A stretch of 49,958 nucleotides of DNA, taken from IMG/VR virus record IMGVR_UViG_3300046466_000125, positions 1 through 49,958 of that record; one strand, written 5' to 3'. Each line of letters begins with the position of its first letter. Position 1 is the first letter of the stretch. This DNA is from a virus. Below are positions 6,327 through 47,455 of the stretch, in pieces. The notes beneath the pieces are model-generated. The model was not told where the DNA came from and did no database searches. It worked only from the letters and a program-made list of their open reading frames with translations. Position numbers and translations under genes: made by a program.

Positions 6327-6782
6327 ATGGCTTTTGTATTAAACGACAGAGTTAAACAGACTAGTACATCTACTGGTACAGGAACAATTAATTTAACAGG
6401 AACCGAAGTAGGTTTCGAAACTTTTGTTGCTGGTATCGGTGATACGAATAGTACGTTCTATTGTATTTCACATGACGGAACATCTGATTTTGAAGTTGGT
6501 ATTGGAACAGTAACTGATGCAGGTACTGATACACTTTCCAGAACCACAATTATCTCCTCTTCAAATTCAGACAACCTTGTGAATTTTCAAGCAGGAACTA
6601 AAACTGTATTTTGTACTTACCCTGCAAAACGAGCTCCGTCTGCAAGTATGACAGCCACAACTTATGTAACAACACACGCATCAACTATTTCTGATGTTCA
6701 AACAATGGACTCAGGAGTTTTAGCAGGGCCAGTAACTGTATCAGGAACTGTAACAGTAACAGGTAATTTGGTAATTATATAA
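6327..6782 (+). CDS. Small tail-fibre-associated protein
   Basis: A 151-aa beta-rich protein. The N-terminus MAFVLNDRVKQTSTSTGTG followed by FETFVAGIGDTNSTFYCISH and DFEVGIGTVTDAGTDTLSRT is a familiar module at the head of tail fibre or tail spike regions. The C-terminus is a Val/Thr repeat (TVSGTVTVTGNLVII). It ends in a TAATG overlap with the first gene of the triplicated fibre cassette, so it is probably expressed with it. Role as fibre base or adaptor is inferred. Confidence 0.55.
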   Translation: MAFVLNDRVKQTSTSTGTGTINLTGTEVGFETFVAGIGDTNSTFYCISHDGTSDFEVGIGTVTDAGTDTLSRTTIISSSNSDNLVNFQAGTKTVFCTYPAKRAPSASMTATTYVTTHASTISDVQTMDSGVLAGPVTVSGTVTVTGNLVII

Positions 6783-7570
6783 TGAGTACTTTAGAAGTTA
6801 ATAAAATTATACCACAGTCAGGAACTAACGTTCAAATTGGTGAAGCTGGAGATAGTCTAACATTTCAAAATGATAGTATTCCAAACTCTGCTTTAGTAAA
6901 TGAACAAATTACAATCAATGGTGTTGCTGTAAACTTAGGTGGATCTGCTACCATACCTACAGAAACACAACCAACGATTACAGGTATTTCACCTGCTACT
7001 ATTGATGCAGATGTGGGTGGTACAATAACTTTAACAGGAACAAATTTTGCATCTATACCAAAAGTAGAATTACAAAGAGCAAATGGTTTGGTTCAATTTG
7101 CAACTTCTGTTACATTTACAAATGCAACAACAGTTAGTTTTACAACTGGTACAGCAGGTTTAACAAACGGACAAAACGTTAGAATTTTATTAACAAATCC
7201 AGACGGTAATGCAGTTAGAAGTTCATCAGATTTAGTTATTTCAGATGGCCCTGTATTTACGACAACAAGTTTACCTAATGGAACAGCTAATCAATCTTAT
7301 TCACAAAACATAGATGTTACAGGAGATAGTGCTGTAACAATAGCTATCAACTCTGGATCTTCATTACCTTCAGGAATAAGTTTAGGATCTACATCAAATG
7401 TAAGTGGGTCTACATATAGAGCAGTTTTATCAGGAACTTTACCAAACACTGCTAGTGAAACTACATACAATTTTACATTAAAAGCAACAGATGCGCAGGC
7501 ACAGGTAACAACACAAGCGTTGTCAATTACTGGTGAAGTTGGTATAACAAACTCTGGAGGATTCTGTTAA
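6782..7570 (+). CDS. Tail fibre protein with IPT/TIG and Ig-like domains (cassette copy A, gene 1)
   Basis: A 262-aa protein. Residues 1-60 hold a fibre N-terminal segment (MSTLEVNKIIPQSGTNVQIG) also found at the start of copy B. Residues about 65-152 look like an IPT/TIG domain (PTITGISPATIDADVGGTI, LTGTNF). Residues 158-255 look like a cadherin-type Ig domain (TTTSLPNGTANQSYSQNI, then TLKATDAQAQVTTQAL). Such domains decorate fibres and bind surface glycans or proteins. Its homologues are at 9974 and 13134. It overlaps both neighbours by stop-start contacts. Confidence 0.7.
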   Translation: MSTLEVNKIIPQSGTNVQIGEAGDSLTFQNDSIPNSALVNEQITINGVAVNLGGSATIPTETQPTITGISPATIDADVGGTITLTGTNFASIPKVELQRANGLVQFATSVTFTNATTVSFTTGTAGLTNGQNVRILLTNPDGNAVRSSSDLVISDGPVFTTTSLPNGTANQSYSQNIDVTGDSAVTIAINSGSSLPSGISLGSTSNVSGSTYRAVLSGTLPNTASETTYNFTLKATDAQAQVTTQALSITGEVGITNSGGFC

Positions 7571-8952
7571 TGTCATCAGCAACCGCATATCTTAAAAGAA
7601 CTGTAGGAACACCTACTAATAGAAAAAAATTTACAGCAAGTATGTGGATTAGAAAAGCCTCAACTGATGTTGAAAGAAATTTTTTTGGTATGATTGGTAG
7701 TGGTGATTCTGGGCCTTATATGGATTTTAGATTTGCTACTACTGGTCAATTAGAATTATATCACTATAATAGTGGTTATCAATTTAGATTAACTACTAAC
7801 AGACGTCTTAGAGATAATAACGCTTGGTATCATTTTGTTTTTACAGTAGACACAACTTTAGCAACAGCAGATGATAGATTTAAAGTTTATGTAAACGGAG
7901 TGCAAGAAACATCTTTTGCAAATAGAACAAACCCATCACAAAATTTAGATATTCCAGTTAATGTAAGTGGTAGTTCAGTGGCTGTTGGTCATTATAGAAC
8001 CCCTAATTCATCTACATTTCCAGGTCAGTTTGCTCATGTTCATTTTGTAGACGGCTCAGCTTTAACACCGTCAACTTTTGGTGAAATAGATTCAACAACA
8101 GGAATTTGGAAAGCTAAAACATCGCCAACGGTAACTTATGGAACAAATGGATTCTTTTTAAAATTTGATAACTCAGCAAACATGGGACTTGATTCATCTG
8201 GTCAATCAAATAATTTGACAGTTTCGGGTACAATTCTTCAAGTTAAAGATACACCTTCAAATGTATTTTCAACTATAAATTCATTAGACATGAAATGGTG
8301 GTGGGGAGATGAAACTAATAATAACATGAGTAATTTTAATACAACAGTTCAAACTGGTAATAGTCAATATTCTAATCCAAGTTCAACTTTAGGTGCTTCA
8401 AAGGGAAAATATTATTGGGAAGTAAAACCATTTAATAAAAATGGTGGTAATGATAGTGAATTAATGATTGGAGTTACATCAACTTTTGCTACAAGCTCAG
8501 GTTATACTCTTGGGTATTTTCCAAACGATGTTGCTTATAGAGGAAGTGGAGTTAAACAAATTAATAATGCTACCACATCTTATGGCAATTCTTATGCTAT
8601 TGATGATATTATAGGTGTTGCTATGGATTTAGATAACAACAAATTATATTTTTCTAAAAACGGTGTATTTCAAAATAGTGGTGTACCAACTTCAGGTTCT
8701 ACTGGTACAGGTGCTATACCATTAACAGATCCAGCTAGTACTGATTTCGGTTTTTATATGCCATCTATAGCTTTTACCAATGGAAGTTATCACGCAAAAT
8801 TTCATTTAAATATGGGTCTTGGATTTTTTGGTACAACTGCTGTATCATCAGCAGAAAATCCAGATGACGGAATAGGTATATTTGAGTATGATGTCCCAGC
8901 GGGCTATCGAGCACTTTGTACTAAATCATTAAACGCACAGGAGTATAGTTAA
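7570..8952 (+). CDS. LamG-like plus SPRY-like fibre protein (cassette copy A, gene 2)
   Basis: A 460-aa protein. Residues about 15-185 have a LamG/concanavalin-like pattern (KKFTASMWIRKAS, NAWYHFVFTVDTT, FKVYVNGVQET, FAHVHFVDGSALTP). Residues about 255-445 have a SPRY-like pattern (GKYYWEVKPF, IDDIIGVAMDLDNNKLYFSK, then VPTSGSTGTGAI). Both are jelly-roll binding domains, so adhesion to host surface is the likely job. Homologues lie at 10769 and 14300. It starts within the previous stop and ends within the next start, so it is translated as part of the cassette. Confidence 0.75.
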   Translation: MSSATAYLKRTVGTPTNRKKFTASMWIRKASTDVERNFFGMIGSGDSGPYMDFRFATTGQLELYHYNSGYQFRLTTNRRLRDNNAWYHFVFTVDTTLATADDRFKVYVNGVQETSFANRTNPSQNLDIPVNVSGSSVAVGHYRTPNSSTFPGQFAHVHFVDGSALTPSTFGEIDSTTGIWKAKTSPTVTYGTNGFFLKFDNSANMGLDSSGQSNNLTVSGTILQVKDTPSNVFSTINSLDMKWWWGDETNNNMSNFNTTVQTGNSQYSNPSSTLGASKGKYYWEVKPFNKNGGNDSELMIGVTSTFATSSGYTLGYFPNDVAYRGSGVKQINNATTSYGNSYAIDDIIGVAMDLDNNKLYFSKNGVFQNSGVPTSGSTGTGAIPLTDPASTDFGFYMPSIAFTNGSYHAKFHLNMGLGFFGTTAVSSAENPDDGIGIFEYDVPAGYRALCTKSLNAQEYS

Positions 8953-9971
8953 TGGCACAAATTAATAAACCTAACTTACATTTTAATACTAAACTTTATA
9001 CTGGTAATGGTGGAACACAAGCTGTGACAGGTGTTGGTTTTCAACCAGATTGGGTTTGGATAAAAAATAGAGGTGTCGCAGAAAGTCATGTTTTATTTGA
9101 TGTTTTAAGAGGAGTACAAAAAGCACTAAATAGTGATAGTTCAAGTGCAGAAGCTACATCATCAAATTATTTAACTGCTTTTGGAACTGATGGTTTTACT
9201 GTTGGTGCAAGTGGATTAGTAAATGATAATAGTAATACTTATGCATCATGGAACTGGAAAGCAGGTGGTTCTGGTTCATCAAACTCCGATGGCTCTTTAT
9301 CTGCAACTCTTTCAGCAAATGCAACAGCAGGTTTTTCAGTTTCAACATTTACAACTCCTGGTTCAGGAACATTTACAGTAGGTCATGGTTTGGGAGTAGC
9401 ACCAAAAATGGTTATGTATAGACCAACTGGTTCAAGTTCATGGCAAGTAGGTCACGATAGTTTAGGTTGGACAAATTTTCTTGCTTTAAATAATACTGGT
9501 GCTTCAGCATCTAACACAGCTTTTGGAAATACAGCACCAACAACTTCTGTTTGGACAGGTAATACTGCTAATGTAGGTACTAATGCTCCATGTGTAGCTT
9601 ATTGTTTTTCAGAAATAAAGGGTTATTCAAAATTTGGAAAATCCATAGGAAATGGAGATACTAATGGACCATATGTTTATACTGGATTTAAACCTGCTTT
9701 TGTTTTAGCAAAAAATTCTAGTATAAGTGATTGGTGGTCAATGTTTGATAATAAAAGATTAGGATTTAACTCATCAGATTCTCCTAGATTATTATTTCCA
9801 AATGCAAATTCATCAGAATCAAATTCAAAAATGCTAGATCTTACATCAAATGGTTTTAAAATTAGAAGTTCAAATACTGGAATTAATGGTAATGGAAACA
9901 CAACAATTTACATGGCATTTGCAGAAAACCCGATTGTAGGAACAAATAACATACCGGCAACGGCAGGATAA
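8952..9971 (+). CDS. 'YTGNGGT' fibre protein (cassette copy A, gene 3)
   Basis: A 339-aa beta-rich protein with a diagnostic start, LHFNTKLYTGNGGTQAVTGV followed by GFQPDWVWIKNR, and repeated FGTDGF and NWKAG motifs. A second half-repeat begins near residue 145 (VGHGLGVAPKMVMYR), and the end runs IYMAFAENPIVGTNNIPATAG. I recall this as an unnamed domain common in environmental phage tail proteins. Homologues are at 12091 and 15640; DNA identity with the first is near perfect over 46 bases at the 5' end. It ends two bases before copy B begins. Confidence 0.7.
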   Translation: MAQINKPNLHFNTKLYTGNGGTQAVTGVGFQPDWVWIKNRGVAESHVLFDVLRGVQKALNSDSSSAEATSSNYLTAFGTDGFTVGASGLVNDNSNTYASWNWKAGGSGSSNSDGSLSATLSANATAGFSVSTFTTPGSGTFTVGHGLGVAPKMVMYRPTGSSSWQVGHDSLGWTNFLALNNTGASASNTAFGNTAPTTSVWTGNTANVGTNAPCVAYCFSEIKGYSKFGKSIGNGDTNGPYVYTGFKPAFVLAKNSSISDWWSMFDNKRLGFNSSDSPRLLFPNANSSESNSKMLDLTSNGFKIRSSNTGINGNGNTTIYMAFAENPIVGTNNIPATAG

Positions 9972-9973
9972 TT

Positions 9974-10759
9974 ATGAGTGAAATAAAAGTAAATAAAATT
10001 AGTCCAAGGTCCGGGACCAACGTACAGCTAGGAGATAGTGGTGATACTATAACTATACCTAGTGGTGCAACGTTTGCTGGAACACAGAATATTGCAAACT
10101 CAGCTCTTACAGGATCAGGACAAATTACAATTAATGGTCAAGCAGTAGCGCTTGGTGGATCAGTAACTATTGCTACAGAAACAAGACCAACTTTTACATC
10201 TATAACTCCAAACGTAATTGAAAATGCACAAACAACTTGTGTAATTGCTGGTGGTAGTTTTGCATCTGTACCATTAGTTACAGCAATTAATTCATCTACG
10301 GGTGCTAGAGTATCTGCTGATGAAGTAGCTTACAACTCAGCATCACAGATCACAGTAAAATTTACACTACCAGTTGATGGTACTTATTTATTATATATTG
10401 AAAACCCAGATGGTAATGCAGTTCAAACATCTGCAGTGCTTACAGTTTCTGATGCACCAGCATGGCAAACAGCAGCAGGGTCATTAGGTTCATTTTCTGG
10501 TGGCGCAAGTTTTGGTACAATTACATTAACAGCAACTAATTCAGTATCAATGGCAAAAACATCTGGAACATTTCCAGGTGGTATGACATTAAATAGTGGA
10601 TCAGGTTCGTCTACATTGACTGGAACTGAAACTGGTGCTACAGCTGATACAACGTATACTTTTACTATTCGTGCAACTGATGCTCAAGGTCAAACTGCTG
10701 ATAGAGCATTTACAATAACAATTAATTTAGGAGCTAATAACTCTGGACAGTTTAACTAG
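9974..10759 (+). CDS. Tail fibre protein with IPT/TIG and Ig-like domains (cassette copy B, gene 1)
   Basis: A 261-aa homologue of the 6782 gene with the same layout: fibre N-terminus (NKISPRSGTNVQLGDSGDTI), an IPT-like domain beginning RPTFTSITPNVIENAQ, and a C-terminal Ig-like domain (DAPAWQTAAGSLGSFSGG, YTFTIRATDAQGQTADRAFT). It is closer to copy C than to copy A in the Ig-like half. The end (GANNSGQFN) matches the end of copy C (GASGGGQFN). Probable fibre shaft or receptor-binding component, inferred from domain type and position. Confidence 0.7.
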   Translation: MSEIKVNKISPRSGTNVQLGDSGDTITIPSGATFAGTQNIANSALTGSGQITINGQAVALGGSVTIATETRPTFTSITPNVIENAQTTCVIAGGSFASVPLVTAINSSTGARVSADEVAYNSASQITVKFTLPVDGTYLLYIENPDGNAVQTSAVLTVSDAPAWQTAAGSLGSFSGGASFGTITLTATNSVSMAKTSGTFPGGMTLNSGSGSSTLTGTETGATADTTYTFTIRATDAQGQTADRAFTITINLGANNSGQFN

Positions 10760-10768
10760 GATAATATT

Positions 10769-12082
10769 ATGGCAAATAGTTATTTAACATTTAACGAAAC
10801 AGCAACACCAGCTAATCAAACTAAATTTACTTATAGTGCTTGGATTAAAAGAAGTAAATTATCAGCTGACCAAACAATTTTTTATAATTACAAAGATTCT
10901 AGTAATTATGGTTATATGTATTTTAGGTCTGGAGATGATTTAAGATATTTTGATAGAGTAGCAGGTGGAGATACTGCAATATTTGCAACAACAAGAAAAT
11001 TTAGAGATACTTCAGCATGGTATCATTTAGTATTACAGGTAGATACAACACAAGGAACAAATACAAATAGACTTAAATTTTATGTAAATGGGGTTCAAGA
11101 AACTCTTGCTGAAACTACTTATCCAAATCAAGACCAAGCCCTTTCTTTACCTAGAGAAGGAGTAAGAACTATTGGTGCAAGTAATGGTGGTAGTAATCTT
11201 TTTGAAGGTTATCAAAGTCATGTTGCATTTGTAGATAGCACATCTCCAGCTTACACAACATTTGGTGAAACAGATTCAACATCAGGTATTTGGAAATTTA
11301 AATCACCATCTGGTGTTACTTGGGGTAATACAGGTTTTCATTTAAAATTTGAAAACTCTGCAGCACTTGGTACAGATAGTTCTGGTAACTCAAGCACATT
11401 TACAGTTAATGGAAATTTAAAACAAGCACTTGATACACCATCAAATGTTTATGCTACTTTTAATCCACTTCATTTTCAAGCTGGTAGAGCTTTAACAATG
11501 TCAAATGGTAATGGGAAGATTGCATCTAATCAAAATAATTGGCAACCAATAGGAAGTACACTTGCAGTACCCCCTAAAACAGGTAAGTGGTATTGGGAAT
11601 TTTCACAATTTATTGAAGCACAAACTTTTGTAGGTTTTATATCAAGTGAATGTAATATAAATATTAATTTACCTTACCAAGCAACTGATGGAATGATTAC
11701 ATATTTTTATGCAGGAAGATTAACAAATGATGGTAGTGAAACTGAAAGTTATTTTACAGCAATATCTGCAACAACAGATGTAGTTGGAGTTGCTTTGGAT
11801 ATGACAGCAGGTACTTATGGACAAGTTCAATTTTATCTTAATGGTTCTCCAACAGGTTCAGCAGTAGCTTTAGGCTCATCTTTTGCTAACCAGTTTGTAA
11901 TGCCTTTTGCTATGTGTAATGGTACTGGTGGTAGAAGTGTTAGTATTAACACAGGCAACGGATATTTTGGTACTACAGCTATAACTTCTGCTGGTTCAAA
12001 TGGTAATGGAAGTTTATTTGAATATGATGTACCATCTGGATATTACGCATTGAATACAAAAAATATTAACACATACGGATAA
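10769..12082 (+). CDS. LamG-like plus SPRY-like fibre protein (cassette copy B, gene 2)
   Basis: A 437-aa homologue of the 7570 and 14300 genes. The LamG-like half carries TKFTYSAWIKRSK, SAWYHLVLQVDTTQGT, LKFYVNGVQET and FEGYQSHVAFVDST. The SPRY-like half carries GKWYWEFSQFIEAQTFVGF, VVGVALDMTAGTYGQVQFYL and a C-terminal FEYDVPSGYYALNTK. The FEYDVP(S/A/T)GY end is shared by all three copies. The SPRY half is the most divergent of the three, as expected if binding specificity has diversified. Confidence 0.72.
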   Translation: MANSYLTFNETATPANQTKFTYSAWIKRSKLSADQTIFYNYKDSSNYGYMYFRSGDDLRYFDRVAGGDTAIFATTRKFRDTSAWYHLVLQVDTTQGTNTNRLKFYVNGVQETLAETTYPNQDQALSLPREGVRTIGASNGGSNLFEGYQSHVAFVDSTSPAYTTFGETDSTSGIWKFKSPSGVTWGNTGFHLKFENSAALGTDSSGNSSTFTVNGNLKQALDTPSNVYATFNPLHFQAGRALTMSNGNGKIASNQNNWQPIGSTLAVPPKTGKWYWEFSQFIEAQTFVGFISSECNININLPYQATDGMITYFYAGRLTNDGSETESYFTAISATTDVVGVALDMTAGTYGQVQFYLNGSPTGSAVALGSSFANQFVMPFAMCNGTGGRSVSINTGNGYFGTTAITSAGSNGNGSLFEYDVPSGYYALNTKNINTYG

Positions 12083-12090
12083 CAAATAAT

Positions 12091-13131
12091 ATGGCATACT
12101 CAACAATCTCAAAACCTAGCTTACATTTTAATACTAAACTTTATACAGGTAATGGTGGAACACAATCAATTACAGGTGTTGGATTTCAACCTGATTGGGT
12201 ATGGCTTAAAAAAAGAAATAGCACAGCAGATCATGGACTATATGATGCTGTAAGAGGTGTAACAAAACAGTTATATTCTAATGATACAGCAGCAGAGGCT
12301 ACAAATGCTAATTCATTAACAGCTTTTGGAACTGATGGATTTAGTATTGGAACATCATCAATGATTAATGGAAACTCTGATACTTTTGCATCATGGAACT
12401 GGAAAGCAGGAACTGGACAAGGTTCATCAAATACAGATGGTTCTATAAATACTACTTACACTTCTGTTAATACGACAGCAGGTTTTTCTATAAATCAATA
12501 CACAGGTACAGGTGCAACTGCAACAGTTGGGCATGGTTTGGGTGTAGTACCAGATTTTATGATTATAAAAAAATATAGTGCTTCTGGTACTCAATGGACT
12601 ATTTATCATAAACAATTAGGCCCTACTAAACACATACTTTTTACAACTGGAGCAGAAGTTACACAAGCTAATTATTGGAATGACACAGCTCCAACTAATT
12701 TAGTTTGGACTATGGGAAATCAAAGTGAAATAAATGGTAGTGGTACTACTAATATTTGTTATGCTTTTGCAGAAAAAAAAGGCTACTCAAAATTTGGAAG
12801 CTATGTTGGTAATGCAAGTACAAATGGTACATTTATTTACACAGGATTTAAACCAGCTATGGTTATATTAAAAGACTCTACAAGTGTATCAAATTGGATG
12901 ATATATGATAATAAAAGAGAAGGTTACAATGTTGATAATGACCATTTAAAAATAAACAATTCTGATGCAGAAGGTACTTCTGATGATTTGGATATTTTAT
13001 CTAATGGATTTAAATTAAGAACAAGTGGCAATGGAGAAAATAAAGCTAATGCAACTTTTATCTACATGGCAATAGCAGCAGAACCTCTTGTAGCTAATGT
13101 AGGAGCAAGTATACCGGCAACGGCTAGATAA
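12091..13131 (+). CDS. 'YTGNGGT' fibre protein (cassette copy B, gene 3)
   Basis: A 346-aa homologue of the 8952 gene. It opens with KPSLHFNTKLYTGNGGTQ and GFQPDWVWLKKR, keeps the FGTDGFSIG and NWKAGTGQG motifs, has the second half-repeat at VGHGLGVVPDFMIIKK, and ends with SIPATAR. The first 46 bases of homology (12120-12165) differ from copy A (8975-9020) at a single base, while the centre has diverged. That pattern suggests recent exchange of the 5' end. Probable receptor-binding fibre part; function inferred. Confidence 0.7.
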   Translation: MAYSTISKPSLHFNTKLYTGNGGTQSITGVGFQPDWVWLKKRNSTADHGLYDAVRGVTKQLYSNDTAAEATNANSLTAFGTDGFSIGTSSMINGNSDTFASWNWKAGTGQGSSNTDGSINTTYTSVNTTAGFSINQYTGTGATATVGHGLGVVPDFMIIKKYSASGTQWTIYHKQLGPTKHILFTTGAEVTQANYWNDTAPTNLVWTMGNQSEINGSGTTNICYAFAEKKGYSKFGSYVGNASTNGTFIYTGFKPAMVILKDSTSVSNWMIYDNKREGYNVDNDHLKINNSDAEGTSDDLDILSNGFKLRTSGNGENKANATFIYMAIAAEPLVANVGASIPATAR

Positions 13132-13133
13132 TT

Positions 13134-14300
13134 ATGAGTAGTATATTAAAAGTAGATACAATTCAGGACCAGAATGGTAATCTGATCATCAGTAAAGATT
13201 CTGGTGGTGGAGGATTTGAAGGGACTTATTTTTCTTCATCGAGCCCAAAAGTATTTACAGTTAAAGTTATTACTAAAACTGCAGCTTCTCCGTATCACAA
13301 TGTTGGAAGCAATAATGGTTATTCAATTAATGCTATTGAAACACCTATCATAGAATTAAAAGGTAATGATACAGGTAAACCATACTACTATAAATTTGAT
13401 CAATCAGATGCATCTAACTCTGGTCATCCATTAAGATTTTACAATAACGTATCAAAGACAACTGCATTTACAACAGGTGTAACTACATCTGGTACACCAG
13501 GACAAGCTGGTGCACATACAACTATTGCTGTTGATAATGATACACCAAACATTTTATACTACCAATGTTCATCACATGCGAACATGGGTAATTTTATAAA
13601 TCATAATTCATCTACAATTAACACAGGTGTATTTTTAAAATTACCAGCAACTGATGGTACAGCGAATCAAGTAATCTCGACTAACGGATCAGGTACATTA
13701 TCTTTTTCTGATAGTGTTCTTTTTCCAACTATAAGTTCTATTAGTCCAAGTGTTGTTGAAAACACACAAACAGCTATAACACTTACAGGTACAAATTTTA
13801 AAGACAGTTCGACACCACCTTTTGTAGATGCAATTAATTCATCTACTGGTGCAATTGTAACTGCAGACTCAGTATCATTTACAAATACAACAACGGTTGT
13901 TGCAACATTTACTTTACCGGTTGATGGTACATACTTTTTAAGATTAGAAAATAACGATGGTATTGCATGTAGATCTGGAACAGCTTTACTTACTGTATCT
14001 GATGCACCTGCGTGGACGACTTCTGCAGGTAGTCTAGGAACAGTGGCCGCTGCAGGAAGTGTCAACTTTACAGTTGCAGCAACAAATGCTACAAGCTTTG
14101 CTAAGTCATCTGGAAGTTTTCCAGGTGGTGTAACAATTAATGCAAGCACCGGAGTAATATCTGGAACTGAGTCAGGGTCAAGCAGTACTACTACGTATAC
14201 ATTTACTATACGAGCAACGGATGCACAGGCCCAAACGGCTGACAGACAGTTTACAATTACAATATCTCATGGTGCATCAGGTGGAGGACAATTTAACTAA
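13134..14300 (+). CDS. Tail fibre protein with cupredoxin-like, IPT/TIG and Ig-like domains (cassette copy C, gene 1)
   Basis: A 388-aa version of cassette gene 1 with an extra domain of about 115 residues. Residues 40-155 read like a plastocyanin-type cupredoxin: GHPLRFY (His98), then a distal YYQCSSHANMG with Cys145, His148 and Met151, the order of type 1 copper ligands. I recall the same module in cyanophage structural proteins. IPT-like and Ig-like domains follow as in copies A and B (FPTISSISPSVVENTQ; DAPAWTTSAGSLGT). Metal binding is inferred from spacing and not shown. It ends in a stop-start overlap with the next gene. Confidence 0.7.
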   Translation: MSSILKVDTIQDQNGNLIISKDSGGGGFEGTYFSSSSPKVFTVKVITKTAASPYHNVGSNNGYSINAIETPIIELKGNDTGKPYYYKFDQSDASNSGHPLRFYNNVSKTTAFTTGVTTSGTPGQAGAHTTIAVDNDTPNILYYQCSSHANMGNFINHNSSTINTGVFLKLPATDGTANQVISTNGSGTLSFSDSVLFPTISSISPSVVENTQTAITLTGTNFKDSSTPPFVDAINSSTGAIVTADSVSFTNTTTVVATFTLPVDGTYFLRLENNDGIACRSGTALLTVSDAPAWTTSAGSLGTVAAAGSVNFTVAATNATSFAKSSGSFPGGVTINASTGVISGTESGSSSTTTYTFTIRATDAQAQTADRQFTITISHGASGGGQFN

Positions 14301-15640
14301 TGGCTAATACATGGATAAGCAGAGCAGCAACAGGAAGTGTAACAAGTTCAACTACTTTTACATTTTCTTTTTGGATAAAAAGAGCAACTTTAAGTTCAAC
14401 TCAATACTTTTTTATACATGAAAACGCATCAGGTCATACTCAAAAATTAGAATTATTATTTCAAACAGACAACACAATAAGAATGGGTTGGTATGATGGA
14501 AGTTCAGAATACAACTATGATACTGAAATGTTATTTAGAGATACTTCTGCATGGTATAATTTTGTTTTTAGATATGACACTACACAATCAACAGATTCAA
14601 ATAGAGTTAGAATGTATGTCAATGGTGAACAAATATCATATTTAAATGCTAATGGTAGTTCTCCAACTTACATGACACAAAATAAAGCAATGAATTTAGG
14701 TCAAAAAGTTATGGCTCATGGAAGGTATCAATCTTCTAATCCAGGAAATTATTTAACTGGTAGTTTATCACATATTCATTATTGTGATGGTCAAAGTTAT
14801 GCTCCAACATCATTTGGAGAAACAGATAGTACAACTGGAGAATGGAAAATTAAAGCCAATCCTAGTTTAACTTATGGAAATAATGGATATTTTATTTTAA
14901 AAGATGGAAATTCAGTCACTAATCAAGCAGGAAATTCAAGTGGTAATTTTTCAGTAAGTGGTGGTACACTTACAAAAACAGAAGATTGTCCAAGTAATGT
15001 TTTTGCTACAGGAAATCCAATAGATAATGGTGCAGATAAAAATCCAGTTTTTTTAAATGGTAATAATTCTTATTCTGTTGGTTCTGGGGTTTGGAGATAT
15101 GCAATATCAACTTTAGGTATGACTAAAGGAAAATTTTATATGGAACAAAAAATAGGTTCAAGTGGAAACCATTTTGCAGGTGCTACTGACCAATATGATA
15201 ATCTTTTACTTACCCAAACTTACGCAGGTTCTACTTCATTAAGTGTTGGTTATTATAATAATGGAAATAAATATATTGGAGACAATGCTACAAGTTATGG
15301 TAATTCTTATACAAGTGGAGATATTATTGGTGTTGCAATAGATATTGATAATGGAAAAATTTATTTTAGTAAAAATGGCACTTGGCAAAATTCTGGTGTA
15401 CCTACAAGTGGTTCTACAGGAACTGGTGCTATAGATTTACCAACTTCTGCAAACTCTTATGGGACTTGGTTTTTTGTTCCATCTGTAAATAATTCAACAT
15501 TAGATGTTAATTATGGTAATGGCTACTTCGGAACAACAGCAGTATCTAGTGCAGGAACTAACGCAAGTGGTAATGGAATATTTGAATATGATGTACCAAC
15601 AGGTTATACTGCTTTATCAACAAAAGGATTAAATTTATAA
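14300..15640 (+). CDS. LamG-like plus SPRY-like fibre protein (cassette copy C, gene 2)
   Basis: A 446-aa homologue of the 7570 and 10769 genes. LamG-like motifs are TFTFSFWIKRATL, TSAWYNFVFRYDTTQST, VRMYVNGEQI and LSHIHYCDGQSYAP. SPRY-like motifs are KGKFYMEQKIGSSG, DIIGVAIDIDNGKIYFSKNG and VPTSGSTGTGAIDL, the last nearly identical to copy A. The end FEYDVPTGYTALSTKGLNL matches the family end. Stop-start overlaps join it to both neighbours. Confidence 0.75.
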   Translation: MANTWISRAATGSVTSSTTFTFSFWIKRATLSSTQYFFIHENASGHTQKLELLFQTDNTIRMGWYDGSSEYNYDTEMLFRDTSAWYNFVFRYDTTQSTDSNRVRMYVNGEQISYLNANGSSPTYMTQNKAMNLGQKVMAHGRYQSSNPGNYLTGSLSHIHYCDGQSYAPTSFGETDSTTGEWKIKANPSLTYGNNGYFILKDGNSVTNQAGNSSGNFSVSGGTLTKTEDCPSNVFATGNPIDNGADKNPVFLNGNNSYSVGSGVWRYAISTLGMTKGKFYMEQKIGSSGNHFAGATDQYDNLLLTQTYAGSTSLSVGYYNNGNKYIGDNATSYGNSYTSGDIIGVAIDIDNGKIYFSKNGTWQNSGVPTSGSTGTGAIDLPTSANSYGTWFFVPSVNNSTLDVNYGNGYFGTTAVSSAGTNASGNGIFEYDVPTGYTALSTKGLNL

Positions 15641-16701
15641 TGGCATACGCATCAATAGATAAGTCAGCTTTATTTTTTAAAAATAAAAGATTCACTGGAA
15701 ACAATACAAGTGGTCATGCAATCACAGGAGTTGGTTTTCAACCAGATATGGTTTGGTTTAAAAATGCAAGTTCAACACAAAACTGGAGAGCTTTTGATGT
15801 ATTAAGAGGTGCTACTTACAGACTTGTTCCTAATGAAAATTCTGCAAATGCTGCTGAAGCACAACAATTACAAGCATTTGGTTCAGATGGATTTACTGTT
15901 GGTGCAGATGGTTCTGTAAATGGAAACACAGAAACAATGAATGCTTTCTGTTGGAAAGCTGGAACATCTGTGTCTGGAACAACTACAGGCTCTGGAACTG
16001 GTAAAGCATATTCTGGTTCAGTAAGTACAACTGCTGGTTTTTCTATTATAAAATATTTAGGTAATGGTTCTGCTGGACACACAATACCACATCATTTATC
16101 TGCAGTTCCTAAAATGATTATTGTTAAAAAATTAACGTCAGCAGATTGGCAAGTTTATCATGTAGGTATTGGAAATACAAAAAAACTTTCTTTAAATACA
16201 ACTGGTGCTGCTAGTGTTGAAAACACTAGATGGAATAGCACAACACCAACAAGTTCTGTTTTTACTCTTGGTACAAGTGGAAATGTTAATGCAAATGATG
16301 TATCATTTATAGCCTACTGCTTCGCAGAGAAAACTGGTTTTAGTAAGTTTGGTACTTTTGAGGGTAATGGTACAGCATATCCAAATTCACCATTTATTTA
16401 TACAGGTTTTAAACCAAAATTGTTTTTATGGAAAAATGCAGATGATAGTGGTGGAGATGACCATTGGAATTTTGTTGATTCAGAAGCACAACAATACAAT
16501 GCTAGAGATGGTGGTTTTTATTGGTTAGATAGCACTTATACTGAAAGTAATTTTAGTGGAAATGAAATAAATTTCTTATCTAATGGTGTTAAAATAAATC
16601 CAGCATCAGCTTATCACAATCAATCTGGTTCAACATACATCTACATGGCATTTGGCCAAAGCATAGTTGGCAGTAATAATATTCCGGCAACTGCCAGGTA
16701 A
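15640..16701 (+). CDS. 'YTGNGGT'-family fibre protein (cassette copy C, gene 3)
   Basis: A 353-aa member of the same family as the 8952 and 12091 genes, but the most divergent at the start: FKNKRFTGNNTSGHAITGVG, then FQPDMVWFKNAS. It retains FGSDGFTVGADGSVNG, CWKAGT, a second half-repeat (IPHHLSAVPKMIIVKK), PFIYTGFKPKLFLWKN and the common end NIPATAR. It closes the triplicated cassette and is followed by a different type of fibre protein. Confidence 0.7.
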   Translation: MAYASIDKSALFFKNKRFTGNNTSGHAITGVGFQPDMVWFKNASSTQNWRAFDVLRGATYRLVPNENSANAAEAQQLQAFGSDGFTVGADGSVNGNTETMNAFCWKAGTSVSGTTTGSGTGKAYSGSVSTTAGFSIIKYLGNGSAGHTIPHHLSAVPKMIIVKKLTSADWQVYHVGIGNTKKLSLNTTGAASVENTRWNSTTPTSSVFTLGTSGNVNANDVSFIAYCFAEKTGFSKFGTFEGNGTAYPNSPFIYTGFKPKLFLWKNADDSGGDDHWNFVDSEAQQYNARDGGFYWLDSTYTESNFSGNEINFLSNGVKINPASAYHNQSGSTYIYMAFGQSIVGSNNIPATAR

Positions 16702-16707
16702 CCTGCC

Positions 16708-17343
16708 ATGTACTTTGGCGCAACACCCTTCGCCTCAGCTGCATTTTCAGATGTAGGCTTTAACCCTAATGCATTCGTCAGTGTCCTTGGATCACGGATC
16801 AATGTATCTGTTGGTGATTCTACTATCATTGGTAAAGCTAATGTATCAGTTACTGGTAAAAGAGTTAATATTGGTACAAGTGATGTAACTATTGTTGCTA
16901 AAGCTAGACAAGCGTTACTTGGTAATGGCTTAGAATTAGGTATTGGTAATGCAGAAGCTTCTATACCAAAAAATGTACCAGTTACAGGTAATGCATTTGA
17001 ATTAGCAAATGGAACAGTAATAGTAAAAGCAGGATCTAAACCACCTATTACAGGACAAGAATTAGATCTTGCAACAGGTAATGTAACTATTATAGGTAAA
17101 TGTAATTTATCTGTTACAGGTAATGGTTTTGATTTAGCAATAGGAGATGTTACAGCTAAAGCAAATGCTACGGCTATTGTTACAGGAAAACGAGTTAATA
17201 TAGCTACTAGTAATGTAACAGTTATAGCTAAAGCAAAAGCTTTACCAACAGGTAATGGTTTAGATATTGGAACATCTGAAATTTTAATTAGAAAATGGGA
17301 AGCAGTTCCAATGAATGCTAGCCAAGTTTGGACGGAGATATAA
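16708..17343 (+). CDS. Repeat-containing fibre-tip-like protein
   Basis: A 211-aa protein. After an N-terminus MYFGATPFASAAFSDVGFNP, residues about 25-195 are six to seven repeats of about 25 residues with the rough consensus (V/P)TGN, a Leu/Ile-containing strand, IG, VTI and AKA. This is a beta-repeat layout typical of shaft or tip segments. It ends in PMNASQVWTEI, echoed by the next gene. Start and end motifs are shared with the 17345 gene, so the two are probably paralogues. Several long antisense frames here are shadows of the repeats. Confidence 0.6.
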   Translation: MYFGATPFASAAFSDVGFNPNAFVSVLGSRINVSVGDSTIIGKANVSVTGKRVNIGTSDVTIVAKARQALLGNGLELGIGNAEASIPKNVPVTGNAFELANGTVIVKAGSKPPITGQELDLATGNVTIIGKCNLSVTGNGFDLAIGDVTAKANATAIVTGKRVNIATSNVTVIAKAKALPTGNGLDIGTSEILIRKWEAVPMNASQVWTEI

Positions 17344-17344
17344 T

Positions 17345-17590
17345 ATGTTTTTTGGAGCAACAGCCTTTTCATCAACAACATTTGCAGGGGTTGGAATACA
17401 AAATGTAGTTGTTTTAGCTAATGGCCAAAGAGTTAATATTGCTGTTGGAAACACAACAATAGCTTCAGGAGTTAGACCAGCTGGTAATAGATTTAACCTT
17501 GCATTAGGTACGGTTTCTGTGGTATCATGGAACCCAATAGATCCAAACGCAGGGCAAACGTGGGTCCCAATAGATCCGCTTAACCCATAG
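17345..17590 (+). CDS. Short paralogue of the repeat fibre protein
   Basis: An 81-aa protein starting MFFGATAFSSTTFAGVG, closely matching the start of the 16708 gene, followed by only about two repeats (VLANGQRVNIAVGNTTI and AGNRFNLALGTVSVVS) and an end with AGQTWVPIDPLNP. I chose ATG 17345, two bases after the previous stop, rather than the upstream in-frame ATG at 17315 inside the preceding gene. It may be a capping or chaperone-like short version of the neighbour; this is inference. Confidence 0.55.
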   Translation: MFFGATAFSSTTFAGVGIQNVVVLANGQRVNIAVGNTTIASGVRPAGNRFNLALGTVSVVSWNPIDPNAGQTWVPIDPLNP

Positions 17591-17597
17591 GAGAATT

Positions 17598-18314
17598 ATG
17601 GCATCAACATTTTCGAGTAATTTAAAATTAGAATTAATGACTACCGGTGAGAAGTCAGGTACATGGGGTACTATAACTAACACCAATCTTCAGCAATTAG
17701 AACAAGCCTCATCTGGCTACATATCTATAGATGTAGCATCGTCTGACGTAGCGTTAGCGATTTCTAATGGAGCTGTATCAAATGGTAAAAACCTGTACTT
17801 AAAACTAACGGGTACTCTTGCGGCGAACAGAACTGTAACAGTTCCAGATTCAGTCGAAAGAGTATACGTGGTTGAAGATGCTACGAGTAGAACATCTAAT
17901 AGATATACATTAACTTTTAAAACTGTATCTGGCACAGGCATATCATTACCTGTACAATCAAAATCAGTATTATATTCTGATGGTACAAATGTAAATTCTA
18001 GTATTGTTGAAAGAGGATATATTACAACTAATGGTACTTACACCGCAGTTGTTAATGATCAAGTAATAGTAGACACAAGTGCATCACCAGTAACCGTAAC
18101 ATTACCATCATCACCTTCAGTTGGCGCAGAAGTTCATTTTATAGATGGTGGTGGAGCAGGCGGTAATTTTAATTCAAACAACTTAACCATAGGCAGAAAT
18201 GGTTCTAACATCTTGGGTTCAGCATCAAACTTAGTAGTCAATGTAAATGGCGCAGCATTTACTTTAGTTTACGTAAGTGCGACTAGAGGTTGGGCTTACA
18301 AAGATAAAATATAG
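17598..18314 (+). CDS. Tail fibre / virion protein with MASTFSSNLKLE N-terminus
   Basis: A 238-aa protein with TAGGAG before the start. The N-terminus (MASTFSSNLKLELMTTGEKS, then GTWGTITNTNLQQLEQA) is a pattern I recall in many marine-phage tail fibre proteins, followed by a beta-rich body (LYLKLTGTLAANRTVTVPDS, VYVVEDAT). The C-terminal half (VTVTLPSSPSVGAEVHFIDG) looks like a second small beta domain. Probable fibre or spike component, inferred from family pattern and neighbours. Confidence 0.6.
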   Translation: MASTFSSNLKLELMTTGEKSGTWGTITNTNLQQLEQASSGYISIDVASSDVALAISNGAVSNGKNLYLKLTGTLAANRTVTVPDSVERVYVVEDATSRTSNRYTLTFKTVSGTGISLPVQSKSVLYSDGTNVNSSIVERGYITTNGTYTAVVNDQVIVDTSASPVTVTLPSSPSVGAEVHFIDGGGAGGNFNSNNLTIGRNGSNILGSASNLVVNVNGAAFTLVYVSATRGWAYKDKI

Positions 18315-29053: not shown

Positions 29054-29538
29054 TGCAGCTATCAAAACATTTTAGTTTAAAAGAAATGACCAAGTCGATG
29101 ACAGCGACGCGGAAAAATATTGACAATACTCCAGGAGCTGGAGAGATTAAAAGTTTAGGAGACTTATGTTATGAGGTTCTTGAACCATTACGTGCACACT
29201 TTGACAAGCCAGTTACAATTACTTCGGGCTACAGGTCAGAAGCGTTATGTGAAGCAATCGGAAGCAAAAAGACTTCACAGCATGCAAAGGGCCAGGCTTG
29301 TGATCTAGAAATATTTGGAGTGCCTAATATAAAAGTAGCTTACTGGTTACAAAATAACGTAGACTTTGACCAATTAATTATGGAATTTTATGATCCAGAA
29401 GATCCTGCAGGTGGATGGATACACATTAGTTATCACGAATCAGATTCAAATAGAAAACAAGTTTTAACTTTTGATGGTAAAAGATACACTGAAGGACTTC
29501 CAGAAATGAAATGGTCTGGTGGCAAAGTAGTAGGTTAG
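29053..29538 (+). CDS. Peptidase M15-type endolysin
   Basis: A 161-aa enzyme of the D-Ala-D-Ala carboxypeptidase-like M15 family, expected to cut peptidoglycan cross-links at lysis. Zinc-site motifs are visible: SQHAKGQACD (His77, Asp84) and GWIHIS (His124), plus TITSGYRSEAL upstream, the usual SGYR element. There is no signal peptide, consistent with holin-dependent release. The start overlaps the holin-like stop. The 3' end overlaps the convergent SNF2 helicase gene by four bases. Length fits single-domain phage M15 lysins. Confidence 0.85.
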   Translation: MQLSKHFSLKEMTKSMTATRKNIDNTPGAGEIKSLGDLCYEVLEPLRAHFDKPVTITSGYRSEALCEAIGSKKTSQHAKGQACDLEIFGVPNIKVAYWLQNNVDFDQLIMEFYDPEDPAGGWIHISYHESDSNRKQVLTFDGKRYTEGLPEMKWSGGKVVG

Positions 29539-30965
29539 ATCCATTCTCTTAAATCTTCACCCATAACTTCAGAAGCTATATTTATTTTATCACGTAATGC
29601 TTTTACTATCTTTTCATCAACAGTATCTTCAGCTATAAGATCAACATATGTTACCGATTTTGTTTGTCCTATTCTGTGCGCTCGGTCTTCTGACTGTAAT
29701 CTTTTTTCTAAATCGTAACCATTAGAATAATATATAACAGTGTTAGCTTGTGTAAGTGTAATACCATAACCACCTGTCTGCGGTGTACCTATAATAAATC
29801 TACATTTAGGATCATTTTGAAACTTACGTATATTTTCTTGTCTTACTTCTTGTGGTGTTAGTCCATAGTAATGAACATAAGAATCTTCTCCATATACTTT
29901 AATTAATTTTTGTATAATCTCACCTACACTTAATTGATAGTTAGCCCATATAATAACTTTACCTTCTGTTTCTTCAAGAATAGACATTAGTTCATTTAGT
30001 CTATTACTTTCTACTTCTTGAATAGTGCCATCATCAGCAGTAAAATGACCACAAGTTATTTGATGTAGTCTCATAAGTTGAGTAAGAACAGTCATTGTGC
30101 TTGTTACTTTACCATTTAGAGTTGCAAGAGCTGTTTTTTTCATTTGTTCATAAATACGAGACTGATCTGGTGTGAGTTTAATATGTCGTTTCATATATAT
30201 TTTTTCTGGTAAATCTAAACAATCTTCTTTTAATACTCTGTATGAAAAATTTTTTAATTTATCAGATAGCTCTCCAAGATTAATAAATTTATTTACAACC
30301 TGGATTGATCTTCCTCTCACATTTAATGTTTTCATTTCTGCATATCTATTTCTAAATGCATAATAAGATTGAAAATCTAATAAGTATGGGTCCAAATATA
30401 GACATTGTGTATACAAATCTAGAGGGTTTTTAGTTACTGGAGAACCTGTTAATATTCTTCTATACTTTGCAAGTTGACCAAGTTTAATTATATTTTTTGT
30501 TCTCTGTGCTGAAGGTGTTTTAATAGTTGTTGATTCATCAACAGCCATTAAAGCATTGTGTGAATTTAAAAACTTTGACGCAAATTCGACACCTTTCTTA
30601 GTAGACAGAGCTTCAACATTCATTATAAAAATATGAAGCTCTGTTCCACACAACAACAAGGAGTTAAGTTGTTCGTTTTGTTTTTTTGTTATATTGGATT
30701 GCCACAATACAGACACATTTTCAATATGGTTTGGTAAATGTGTTGGTAGTTCTTGATCGTACCAAGTTTTAACAACACCTTTAGGTGCAATAATTAATGC
30801 ACCATCTATTTTACCGTTGTCGTATAACATAGACATGTTATCGATTAATACTTTTGTTTTACCTGTACCCATCTCCATGAAGTATGCGTACGTTTCTTTA
30901 TTCCATGACTTTTCTAAAGCAGTCAATTGATGCTTGTAAGGTTTCATTTTAAATTTGTAGTTCAT
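29535..30965 (-). CDS. SNF2-family DEAD/DEAH helicase
   Basis: A 476-aa ATPase on the minus strand. The Walker A is MGTGKT (residues 32-37), motif II is DEST (143-146), a TGSP element follows near 173, and motif VI is the SNF2 signature RAHRIGQ (428-434). The C-terminal domain includes GTPQTGGYGITLTQANTVIY. Phages use such helicases in replication, and I recall them beside family A polymerases in virioplankton. It converges on the endolysin and diverges from the replication operon at a palindromic promoter. The −35 predicted on the minus strand is TGTCAA at 31011-31016, with ATG at 30965. Confidence 0.88.
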   Translation of the reverse strand: MNYKFKMKPYKHQLTALEKSWNKETYAYFMEMGTGKTKVLIDNMSMLYDNGKIDGALIIAPKGVVKTWYDQELPTHLPNHIENVSVLWQSNITKKQNEQLNSLLLCGTELHIFIMNVEALSTKKGVEFASKFLNSHNALMAVDESTTIKTPSAQRTKNIIKLGQLAKYRRILTGSPVTKNPLDLYTQCLYLDPYLLDFQSYYAFRNRYAEMKTLNVRGRSIQVVNKFINLGELSDKLKNFSYRVLKEDCLDLPEKIYMKRHIKLTPDQSRIYEQMKKTALATLNGKVTSTMTVLTQLMRLHQITCGHFTADDGTIQEVESNRLNELMSILEETEGKVIIWANYQLSVGEIIQKLIKVYGEDSYVHYYGLTPQEVRQENIRKFQNDPKCRFIIGTPQTGGYGITLTQANTVIYYSNGYDLEKRLQSEDRAHRIGQTKSVTYVDLIAEDTVDEKIVKALRDKINIASEVMGEDLREWI

Positions 30966-46278: not shown

Positions 46279-46647
46279 ATGGGACCAGAGCGTAAATTAT
46301 ATCAAAAAGTTAAGAATTCTATCGACAATATTTCATGGATTAGGATTGAAAACTTTAGCTTACTTGGTACTCCCGATCTATTGGGCTATAATAATTCTGG
46401 CCACTTTTTCACTGTAGAACTTAAAGTTACGAAGAGTAACAAGGTACGCCTATCTCCACATCAAATTAGCTTCCATGTTAAGCATCCGAAGAATAGTTTT
46501 ATCCTAGTAGAGGCCCTTGGTCAAAGGACCGTGAAACTTTTTCCAGGGTCCAAGGTTCAAGAGCTTGCAGCTTGTGGCTTGGAGCTTGAAGCTTGCAGCG
46601 AAGGGCTTGAAGCTTGTGGCTTGTATCTTTCAAAGCTTGGAGCTTGA
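46279..46647 (+). CDS. VRR-NUC-like nuclease with repeat-derived tail
   Basis: A 122-aa protein. Residues 30-65 match a PD-(D/E)XK pattern: GTPDLLG (Asp33), then FFTVELKV (Glu47, Lys49) and SPHQISFH (His61, Gln62), as in VRR-NUC nucleases. The length is typical up to about residue 92. The remaining 30 residues (QELAACGLELEACSEGLEAC and on) are translated from the GCTTG heptamer repeats, so they are probably an accidental extension of the gene into the repeat. No clear upstream ribosome site. Confidence 0.6.
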   Translation: MGPERKLYQKVKNSIDNISWIRIENFSLLGTPDLLGYNNSGHFFTVELKVTKSNKVRLSPHQISFHVKHPKNSFILVEALGQRTVKLFPGSKVQELAACGLELEACSEGLEACGLYLSKLGA

Positions 46648-46676
46648 CGCTTGAAGCTTGATGCTTGAGGCTTGAA
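46563..46676. repeat. Heptamer tandem repeat array R1 (GCTTGNN)
   Basis: Fourteen copies of GCTTGNN in an almost continuous 7-base register, interrupted once by a degenerate unit (46598-46604) and once by nine other bases (46626-46634). It lies in the 3' part of the VRR-NUC-like gene and beyond it. The unit reappears in R2. The variable last two bases are mostly AA, CA, TG or GA. No function can be assigned from sequence. Confidence 0.85.
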
Positions 46677-46761
46677 GGCCCGGACCAGGTGCACGCTACC
46701 ATTACACCCGTCGGCTAAAGTTAAGCTAATGACCTGATCCGATATTCCACGCGGGAATTTT

Positions 46762-47364
46762 TTAATGTTTTCCATAACTAACAGTTTTGATTGAGGCGTC
46801 CCAGCATTGTCTGCAGTCTCTGCACTCATTGTTTTGTTTAGGGGCCGGGCAGCTGGCGTTGCTGTTAACAACCTCCGAACTGTTAGGCCACGAAGCAGGC
46901 GCCCGCTGGTCAACCATGGGCGCGCTAAATCGTATGACTAAATTGTCAGGCTTGCCATCGAGGTGATCTTTGATCCAAGCTTCTCGAGTTGGCATCCAAT
47001 GCTTTTTTGTAGGTGTTAATCTACAGACTTCATAAATTTTGTTTAAATGATCTAGATCTTGAACGTCGCCGCTGTCGTGCCATCTAAAAACATCCGGCTT
47101 TTTACTGTTGATCAGGTGAGCCATTGCCTGGACCCAGTCCGAGCTCTTCAACGCTTCCAGCCTTCGATACTGTGCGTCCTGAACAACCTTGAAGACATAA
47201 CAGCCCTTGAGCGCATAACAGTCGAAGCATACGCTGCCCGGGACCTTCTGAAGCTTGCCGCCGGTCTTGCATTCTTTGGCAGGTAAACCTATCGACCAGC
47301 CAGGCATCTTTGACGGTTTGCTTAGGCTGCCTCCTATAATTTTTAATGCTTCATCTGTTTTCAT
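46762..47364 (-). CDS. GP88-like protein (minus strand)
   Basis: A 200-aa protein resembling, as I recall, the mycobacteriophage gene 88 family: KMPGWSIGLPAKECKTGGKL, then GSVCFDCYALKGCY and VFRWHDSGDVQDLDHLNKIY. It has a dense cysteine pattern, including a C-terminal cluster (SCPAPKQNNECRDCRQC), suggesting metal binding. It is GC-richer than its neighbours and is flanked by heptamer arrays on both sides, consistent with a horizontally acquired cassette. It has AAGGAG before the ATG and a promoter at 47385-47413. The biochemical role of the family is unknown. Confidence 0.6.
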   Translation of the reverse strand: MKTDEALKIIGGSLSKPSKMPGWSIGLPAKECKTGGKLQKVPGSVCFDCYALKGCYVFKVVQDAQYRRLEALKSSDWVQAMAHLINSKKPDVFRWHDSGDVQDLDHLNKIYEVCRLTPTKKHWMPTREAWIKDHLDGKPDNLVIRFSAPMVDQRAPASWPNSSEVVNSNASCPAPKQNNECRDCRQCWDASIKTVSYGKH

Positions 47365-47384: not shown

Positions 47385-47413
47385 CCTATAACACCATATA
47401 AACGTCTTGTCAA
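47385..47413 (-). promoter_or_regulatory. Minus-strand promoter for the GP88-like gene
   Basis: On the minus strand, TTGACA (complement of 47408-47413) is 17 bases from TATAGG (complement of 47385-47390). A leader of about 14 bases leads to an AAGGAG site and ATG 47364. The -35 box touches repeat array R2. Confidence 0.55.
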
Positions 47414-47455
47414 GCTTGCTGCTTGACGCTTGCAGCTTGCGGCTTGTTGCTTGGT
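47414..47455. repeat. Heptamer tandem repeat array R2 (GCTTGNN)
   Basis: Six perfect, uninterrupted copies of GCTTGNN in 7-base register, in the same orientation as R1. Array R1 and R2 flank the GP88-like gene at 86 and 49 bases. The first unit abuts the gene's promoter. Confidence 0.85.

Follow-up and report, generated by a model that had tools for sequence, protein, structure and literature searches.

A tandem array of three tagged, putative tail-fibre cassettes with exchangeable heads in a marine phage probably related to SAR11 viruses

The window analysed here is the whole stretch of 49,958 bases of IMG/VR record IMGVR_UViG_3300046466_000125. Between positions 6782 and 16701 it carries three intact sets of three genes in tandem, each in the order A (IPT/Ig), B (LamG plus SPRY) and C (DUF7483). 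The sets begin at 6782, 9974 and 13134, as an earlier note on this DNA had described, and the nine open reading frames are all on the plus strand, start with ATG and have no internal stop. The record includes exactly three DUF7483 genes. The array is bordered by two conserved anchor genes of the same orientation, g6327 (6327..6782) upstream and d16708 (16708..17343), recognised by comparison of relatives, downstream. The product of g6327 exhibits 79-100% aa identity across the best 80 relatives and has a homologue (68% aa) in the cultured phage HTVC023P. The d16708 gene contains degenerate repeats of about 22 residues in a 66-base register and is overlapped by an antisense ORF of 246 aa. The region downstream of the array shows about 66-70% DNA identity to HTVC027P, HTVC023P and 023Pt_psg01. 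The record, which may be incomplete, probably represents a marine phage related to SAR11 viruses, the host being taken from these relatives. Elsewhere in the record, a minus-strand helicase gene (29535-30965) breaks the otherwise forward gene order. The protein encoded at 37843-38490 matches phrog_3704, annotated 'ferredoxin', and may correspond to an auxiliary metabolic gene. Degenerate heptad tandem repeats (AAGCTTG-like) occur at 46561-46677 and 47413-47453, where the G+C content is elevated (0.43) and an ORF lies on the minus strand (46762-47364).

The A proteins are the putative adaptors of the three slots. A1 (6782..7570) carries an IPT/TIG domain (Pfam TIG, 1.1e-6), while A2 (9974..10759) and A3 (13134..14300) include a He_PIG domain, with an additional N-terminal domain in A3. 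B1 (7570..8952; Laminin_G_3, 4.4e-15; SPRY, 5.8e-9), B2 (10769..12082) and B3 (14300..15640) share the LamG plus SPRY organisation. Both Pfam profiles score above their cut-offs and a phrog_27411 match spans nearly the full length of the proteins, which places them in these families. C1 (8952..9971; PF24299, 2.7e-108), C2 (12091..13131; 2.2e-117) and C3 (15640..16701; 9.2e-90) score 362, 392 and 302 bits against PF24299 (curated cut-off 27 bits) and are clear DUF7483 members. PHROGs labels C as a tail-fibre or virion structural protein, and the gene neighbourhood of the array is virion structural. The AlphaFold models are confident (pLDDT 89 for B1 and 92 for C1) and a structure search retrieved the SPRY fold in the B1 model. 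For DUF7483, a Foldseek search against the PDB returned no match at E <= 0.001. The best VIA-align hit (Z 6, covering part of the protein only) and a weak sequence match to the cannulae protein CanA (E 0.0085) were not counted as relationships. DUF7483 is thus without a clear relative of solved structure, and a literature search found no paper on it. In Synechococcus phage S-B68, tblastn detects six DUF7483-like places. The best of them falls within a 4,791-base gene; the domain is thus also present in very long proteins.

Pairwise alignment of the proteins of the three sets confirmed that the paralogues are homologous (38-48% aa identity for A, 39-44% for B and 42-53% for C; z 15-56 against shuffled sequences). 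The divergence is not simply highest in the middle of the copies, as the earlier note had proposed: A diverges most at its N-terminus, and B in the two blocks on either side of a conserved linker. Between the copies of the window dN is 0.44-0.77 and dS is 0.8-1.2. Synonymous divergence being near saturation, the duplication behind the array is old rather than recent. A collapsed or false repeat is unlikely, and an assembly artefact can be set aside, since a separate IMG/VR record (L086) matches the array at 99-100% protein identity through A3 codon 238, another contig (L208) matches 13793-18129 at 100% DNA identity, and the nine-gene order is repeated in 15 other contigs.

Cassette number was counted by hand in spanning arrays, i.e. 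contigs reaching from g6327 to d16708. Among 28 such arrays, window included, 16 hold three cassettes, eight hold two, three hold one and a single array holds none. These frequencies are biased by the retrieval of the contigs with the anchors and A3 as queries. Individual records carry three DUF7483 genes (62, 50 and 47 kb) or two (57 kb). The three-cassette array is common in the phage group of the window and not peculiar to the window phage. What had been taken for an unusual tandem amplification in one phage is better described as an old, ordered three-slot platform common to many relatives.

The N-termini of the A proteins correspond to three distinct tags of about 24 aa, one per slot: T1 (MSTLEVNKIIPQSGTNVQIGEAGD; 6782..6853), T2 (MSEIKVNKISPRSGTNVQLGDSGD) and T3 (MSSILKVDTIQDQNGNLIISKDSG). 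T1 is a putative virion-docking peptide that is also found on unrelated adhesins. The patterns MSxIEVDKxIPQSGT (T1), MSEVKVNKISPRSGT (T2) and MSSILKVDTIQDQ (T3), which miss divergent forms, identified 95, 52 and 86 loci respectively, some from the same contig and hence not all independent. No locus carries the same kind of tag twice, and the order T1>T2>T3 is observed in 85 of 85 neighbouring tag pairs. In slots devoid of an A-B-C cassette the tag is kept on unrelated adhesins (Peptidase_S74 chaperone fibres, Gp53-like_C or glycine-rich/Gly_rich_2 proteins). In one contig (L283) a short protein carries it, and LamG is on a distinct protein encoded after this one. In two others, L088 (97% DNA identity upstream) and L143, the match to the window ends at 6854, after A1 codon 24. 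The distant group of L304 and L311 shows the order T1, T3-like, T2-like, as does the cultured HTVC023P. In a further contig (L078, 707-7223) the three tags are all carried by long fibre-like proteins, two of which bear Peptidase_S74 chaperones.

Conservation by slot was assessed by permuting slot labels 300 times within 15 nine-gene genomes, including the distant L304 and L311. Same-slot identity was higher than in any of the 300 permutations for A (residues 1-24, z 13.7; remainder, 7.5-13.2), for the tip (5.4), linker (codons 155-230; 12.8) and tail (7.2) of B, and for C residues 1-10 (4.6) and the C end (7.1). No clear same-slot excess was detected in these 15 genomes for LamG (z 1.8), SPRY (1.0) or the body of C (0.2). 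The picture is unchanged when the two distant arrays are removed. In the window, A1 is accordingly slot-locked and B1 alternates between the two behaviours: the LamG head (codons 21-140; 7630..7989) is without clear slot memory (z 1.4-1.8), the linker (codons 155-230; 8032..8259) is slot-locked (z 11.5-12.8) with a signal that drops steeply past codon 230 in a sliding window, the SPRY head (codons 235-405; 8272..8784) is without slot memory (z 0.4-1.0) and has homologues that cross slots, and the C-terminal tail (codons 411-460; 8800..8949) is slot-locked by both the permutation test and the sliding window. The body of C1 has no slot memory, while its final ~25 codons are slot-locked. The missing slot memory of the heads appears to be due in part to saturation, few LamG or C pairs exceeding 70% identity. 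Moreover, the slot-locked frame could reflect the location of crossovers rather than interfaces, and it has exceptions. The LamG head plus its linker is common to L095 slot 1 and L262 slot 3, and the segment shared by L015 slot 2 and L019 slot 3 includes the end of A as well.

Comparison of close relatives locates the variation in blocks. The siblings L267 and L269 are 94-100% identical in their outer flanks except for one edge bin (78%), and their A1, A2 and A3 are 83-100%, 82-98% and 93-100% identical. They differ in all six B and C genes, where most bins of the three slots fall to 38-78% (two bins in slot 2 are higher, 83 and 92). The differences between L095 and L267 are found mainly in slot 1, near the start of B and in a block midway through C, and the same holds for L095 and L092. 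The clearest transfer involves slot 1 of L095 and slot 3 of L020. Their DNA is mostly 90-100% identical (80% in one bin) between B codon ~244 and the C end, against 45-70% over most of A and the initial half of B; a SPRY+C block has thus passed between these two slots. A recombination boundary was also located inside the last 22-25 codons of C3 (16626..16634, plus strand): four contigs (L007, L209, L210 and L025) match the window at 88-96% downstream of it and only at paralogue level upstream. The two heads of B are generally shared separately. When B proteins from different loci are paired at a head identity of at least 70%, 40 of the 47 pairs have only LamG or only SPRY in common and seven have both, these pairs being neither filtered for redundancy nor independent events. 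Different-slot pairs account for 8 of the 17 that share SPRY alone and for 3 of the 23 that share LamG alone. The suggestion of a store of variants for recombination thus holds in so far as heads move between slots of different lineages; within genomes, internal homogenisation or gene conversion was not seen, since in the 15 arrays same-genome paralogues are no closer than cross-slot copies between genomes.

These observations can be compared with several histories of the array. Recent tandem amplification of a single fibre cassette in the lineage of the window phage, with copies now drifting apart, would account for three homologous head-to-tail sets of identical gene order. However, the near-saturated synonymous sites of the copies and the orthology of the slots across 15 other arrays lead us to reject it as exceedingly improbable, and the A tree needs 6 slot changes where 32 are expected (with preliminary slot labels). 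A fast clonal divergence without exchange, in which the heads are saturated, fast-evolving orthologues that merely look slot-less, would agree with the scarcity of high-identity LamG and C pairs and with same-slot and cross-slot identities that both lie at a floor. It is nevertheless very unlikely in view of the siblings that are identical elsewhere yet differ in sharp blocks, of the cross-slot SPRY+C pair at mostly 90-100% DNA identity, and of the bimodal distribution of head identities in same-slot pairs whose linker is conserved (again with preliminary slot labels). Targeted hypermutation by a diversity-generating retroelement might be considered for an extreme diversity restricted to binding domains, but the changes are whole-block replacements rather than substitutions within a short variable repeat. 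No reverse transcriptase (RVT_1) match was found in the window record, which may be incomplete, and no such retroelement was recognised there; its contribution has a probability close to negligible.

The sequences compared demonstrate the slots, the tags, their order, block replacement, cross-slot transfer and alternative occupants. The most likely mechanism, which we hold with good though not full confidence, is one of three tail-fibre docking positions, each with its own tagged adaptor, whose heads are swapped by recombination. The phage would be podovirus-like and related to HTVC023P-type pelagiphages, and each of the three positions on it would be addressed by the ~24-residue N-terminal tag of its A protein. 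A would hold the LamG+SPRY protein B, and the DUF7483 protein C would come next, giving a lectin-like receptor-binding fibre. Docking of the tag to the virion and the assembly of A-B-C as a single fibre in that order are probable. The tags, A, the linker and tail of B and the ends of C would constitute a fixed, slot-specific frame, and the LamG, SPRY and DUF7483 heads an exchangeable cargo replaced as whole blocks by recombination, either between lineages within one slot or, in some cases, from one slot to another. An entire cassette can also give way to an adhesin of a different type on which the tag is retained. The strongest argument for regarding the cassette as a receptor-binding fibre is the presence of S74- and Gp53-type fibre proteins in the same slots. 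The view of the sets as receptor-binding modules serving several receptors, put forward in the earlier note, thereby receives indirect support, from the clear tail-fibre proteins in these slots of relatives and from the single B-C pair of the Skadi-1 hypervariable region. The three fibres would presumably be displayed jointly and bind different receptors on SAR11 cells. Alternatively, a single set might be assembled per virion while the others are spare, a form of bet-hedging by expression that would be in line with the redundancy of the sets and with relatives carrying one or no A-B-C cassette. This is improbable: spare copies would not need different, slot-specific tags, and in relatives missing a cassette the slot is usually taken by a different tagged adhesin.

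Systems with multiple receptor-binding proteins are already known, and relative to the open literature the three-slot tagged array would represent a new form of them. In Ackermannviridae, the branched TSP1-TSP4 complex is encoded by several receptor-binding genes whose N-terminal assembly domains are conserved and whose receptor-binding part varies, and tailspikes are exchanged across the conserved N-termini (PMC11414711). The array resembles this complex in combining several receptor-binding proteins, each conserved in its N-terminal part and variable in its C-terminal part; it would work like it without being a member. In contrast to the T4 gp10-like N-terminal XD domains and the one protein per spike of Ackermannviridae, the array has short tags on a separate A protein, a fibre split over three genes and lectin-like heads. 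No T4 gp10-like (XD) domain was detected in the nine array proteins (Pfam, E 0.05); as judged at the Pfam level, any branching would thus depend on a different fold. Among pelagiphages, the hypervariable region of Skadi-1 (13,646-15,713; PMC10504331) takes in a single B (SPRY) gene and the greater part of a single C gene. Skadi-1/HTVC010P-like phages have a single B-C pair and lack the three ordered slots of the window. HTVC103P and HTVC104P, cultured on SAR11 HTCC7211, carry two A-B-C cassettes of the window type; however, two other genes lie between their cassettes and the A N-termini differ. HTVC023P and 023Pt_psg01 have flank genes homologous to those of the array and a tandem series of four or three paralogous structural proteins with T1-, T3- and T2-like N-termini, but their slots hold other adhesins, without an A-B-C cassette, in the order T1, T3-like, T2-like. 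In HTVC023P (L335, 10242-15938) gp59-gp62 are four tandem paralogues with T1-, T3-, T2- and T2-like N-termini, annotated as hypothetical. Metaviromic islands, in the parts of the source consulted, are defined by read under-recruitment for tail-fibre and C1q genes and reflect host-recognition genes that vary among otherwise near-identical marine phages; the description there does not include a slot or tag structure like that of the window array (PMC3909814). Comparison of contigs (contigs only, no reads) reveals at the window array the block variation expected of such an island.

Phages of SAR11 rank with the most abundant viruses of the ocean, and the array bears on how they keep pace with variation of the host surface. 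The three-slot layout recurring in relatives suggests that recombination changes what these phages bind. The fixed frame and sharply bounded heads suggest which residues are involved in docking and which in recognition, and mark the recombination boundaries. HTVC023P gp59-gp62, with their related tags, provide a cultured entry point. The array genes are unsuitable for comparing or binning such phages. More tentatively, and at somewhat less than even probability, short orthogonal N-terminal tags may route adhesins of any fold to one of three particle positions in a widespread group of ocean phages, so that lectin-like heads are reshuffled independently both inside a position and from one position to another.
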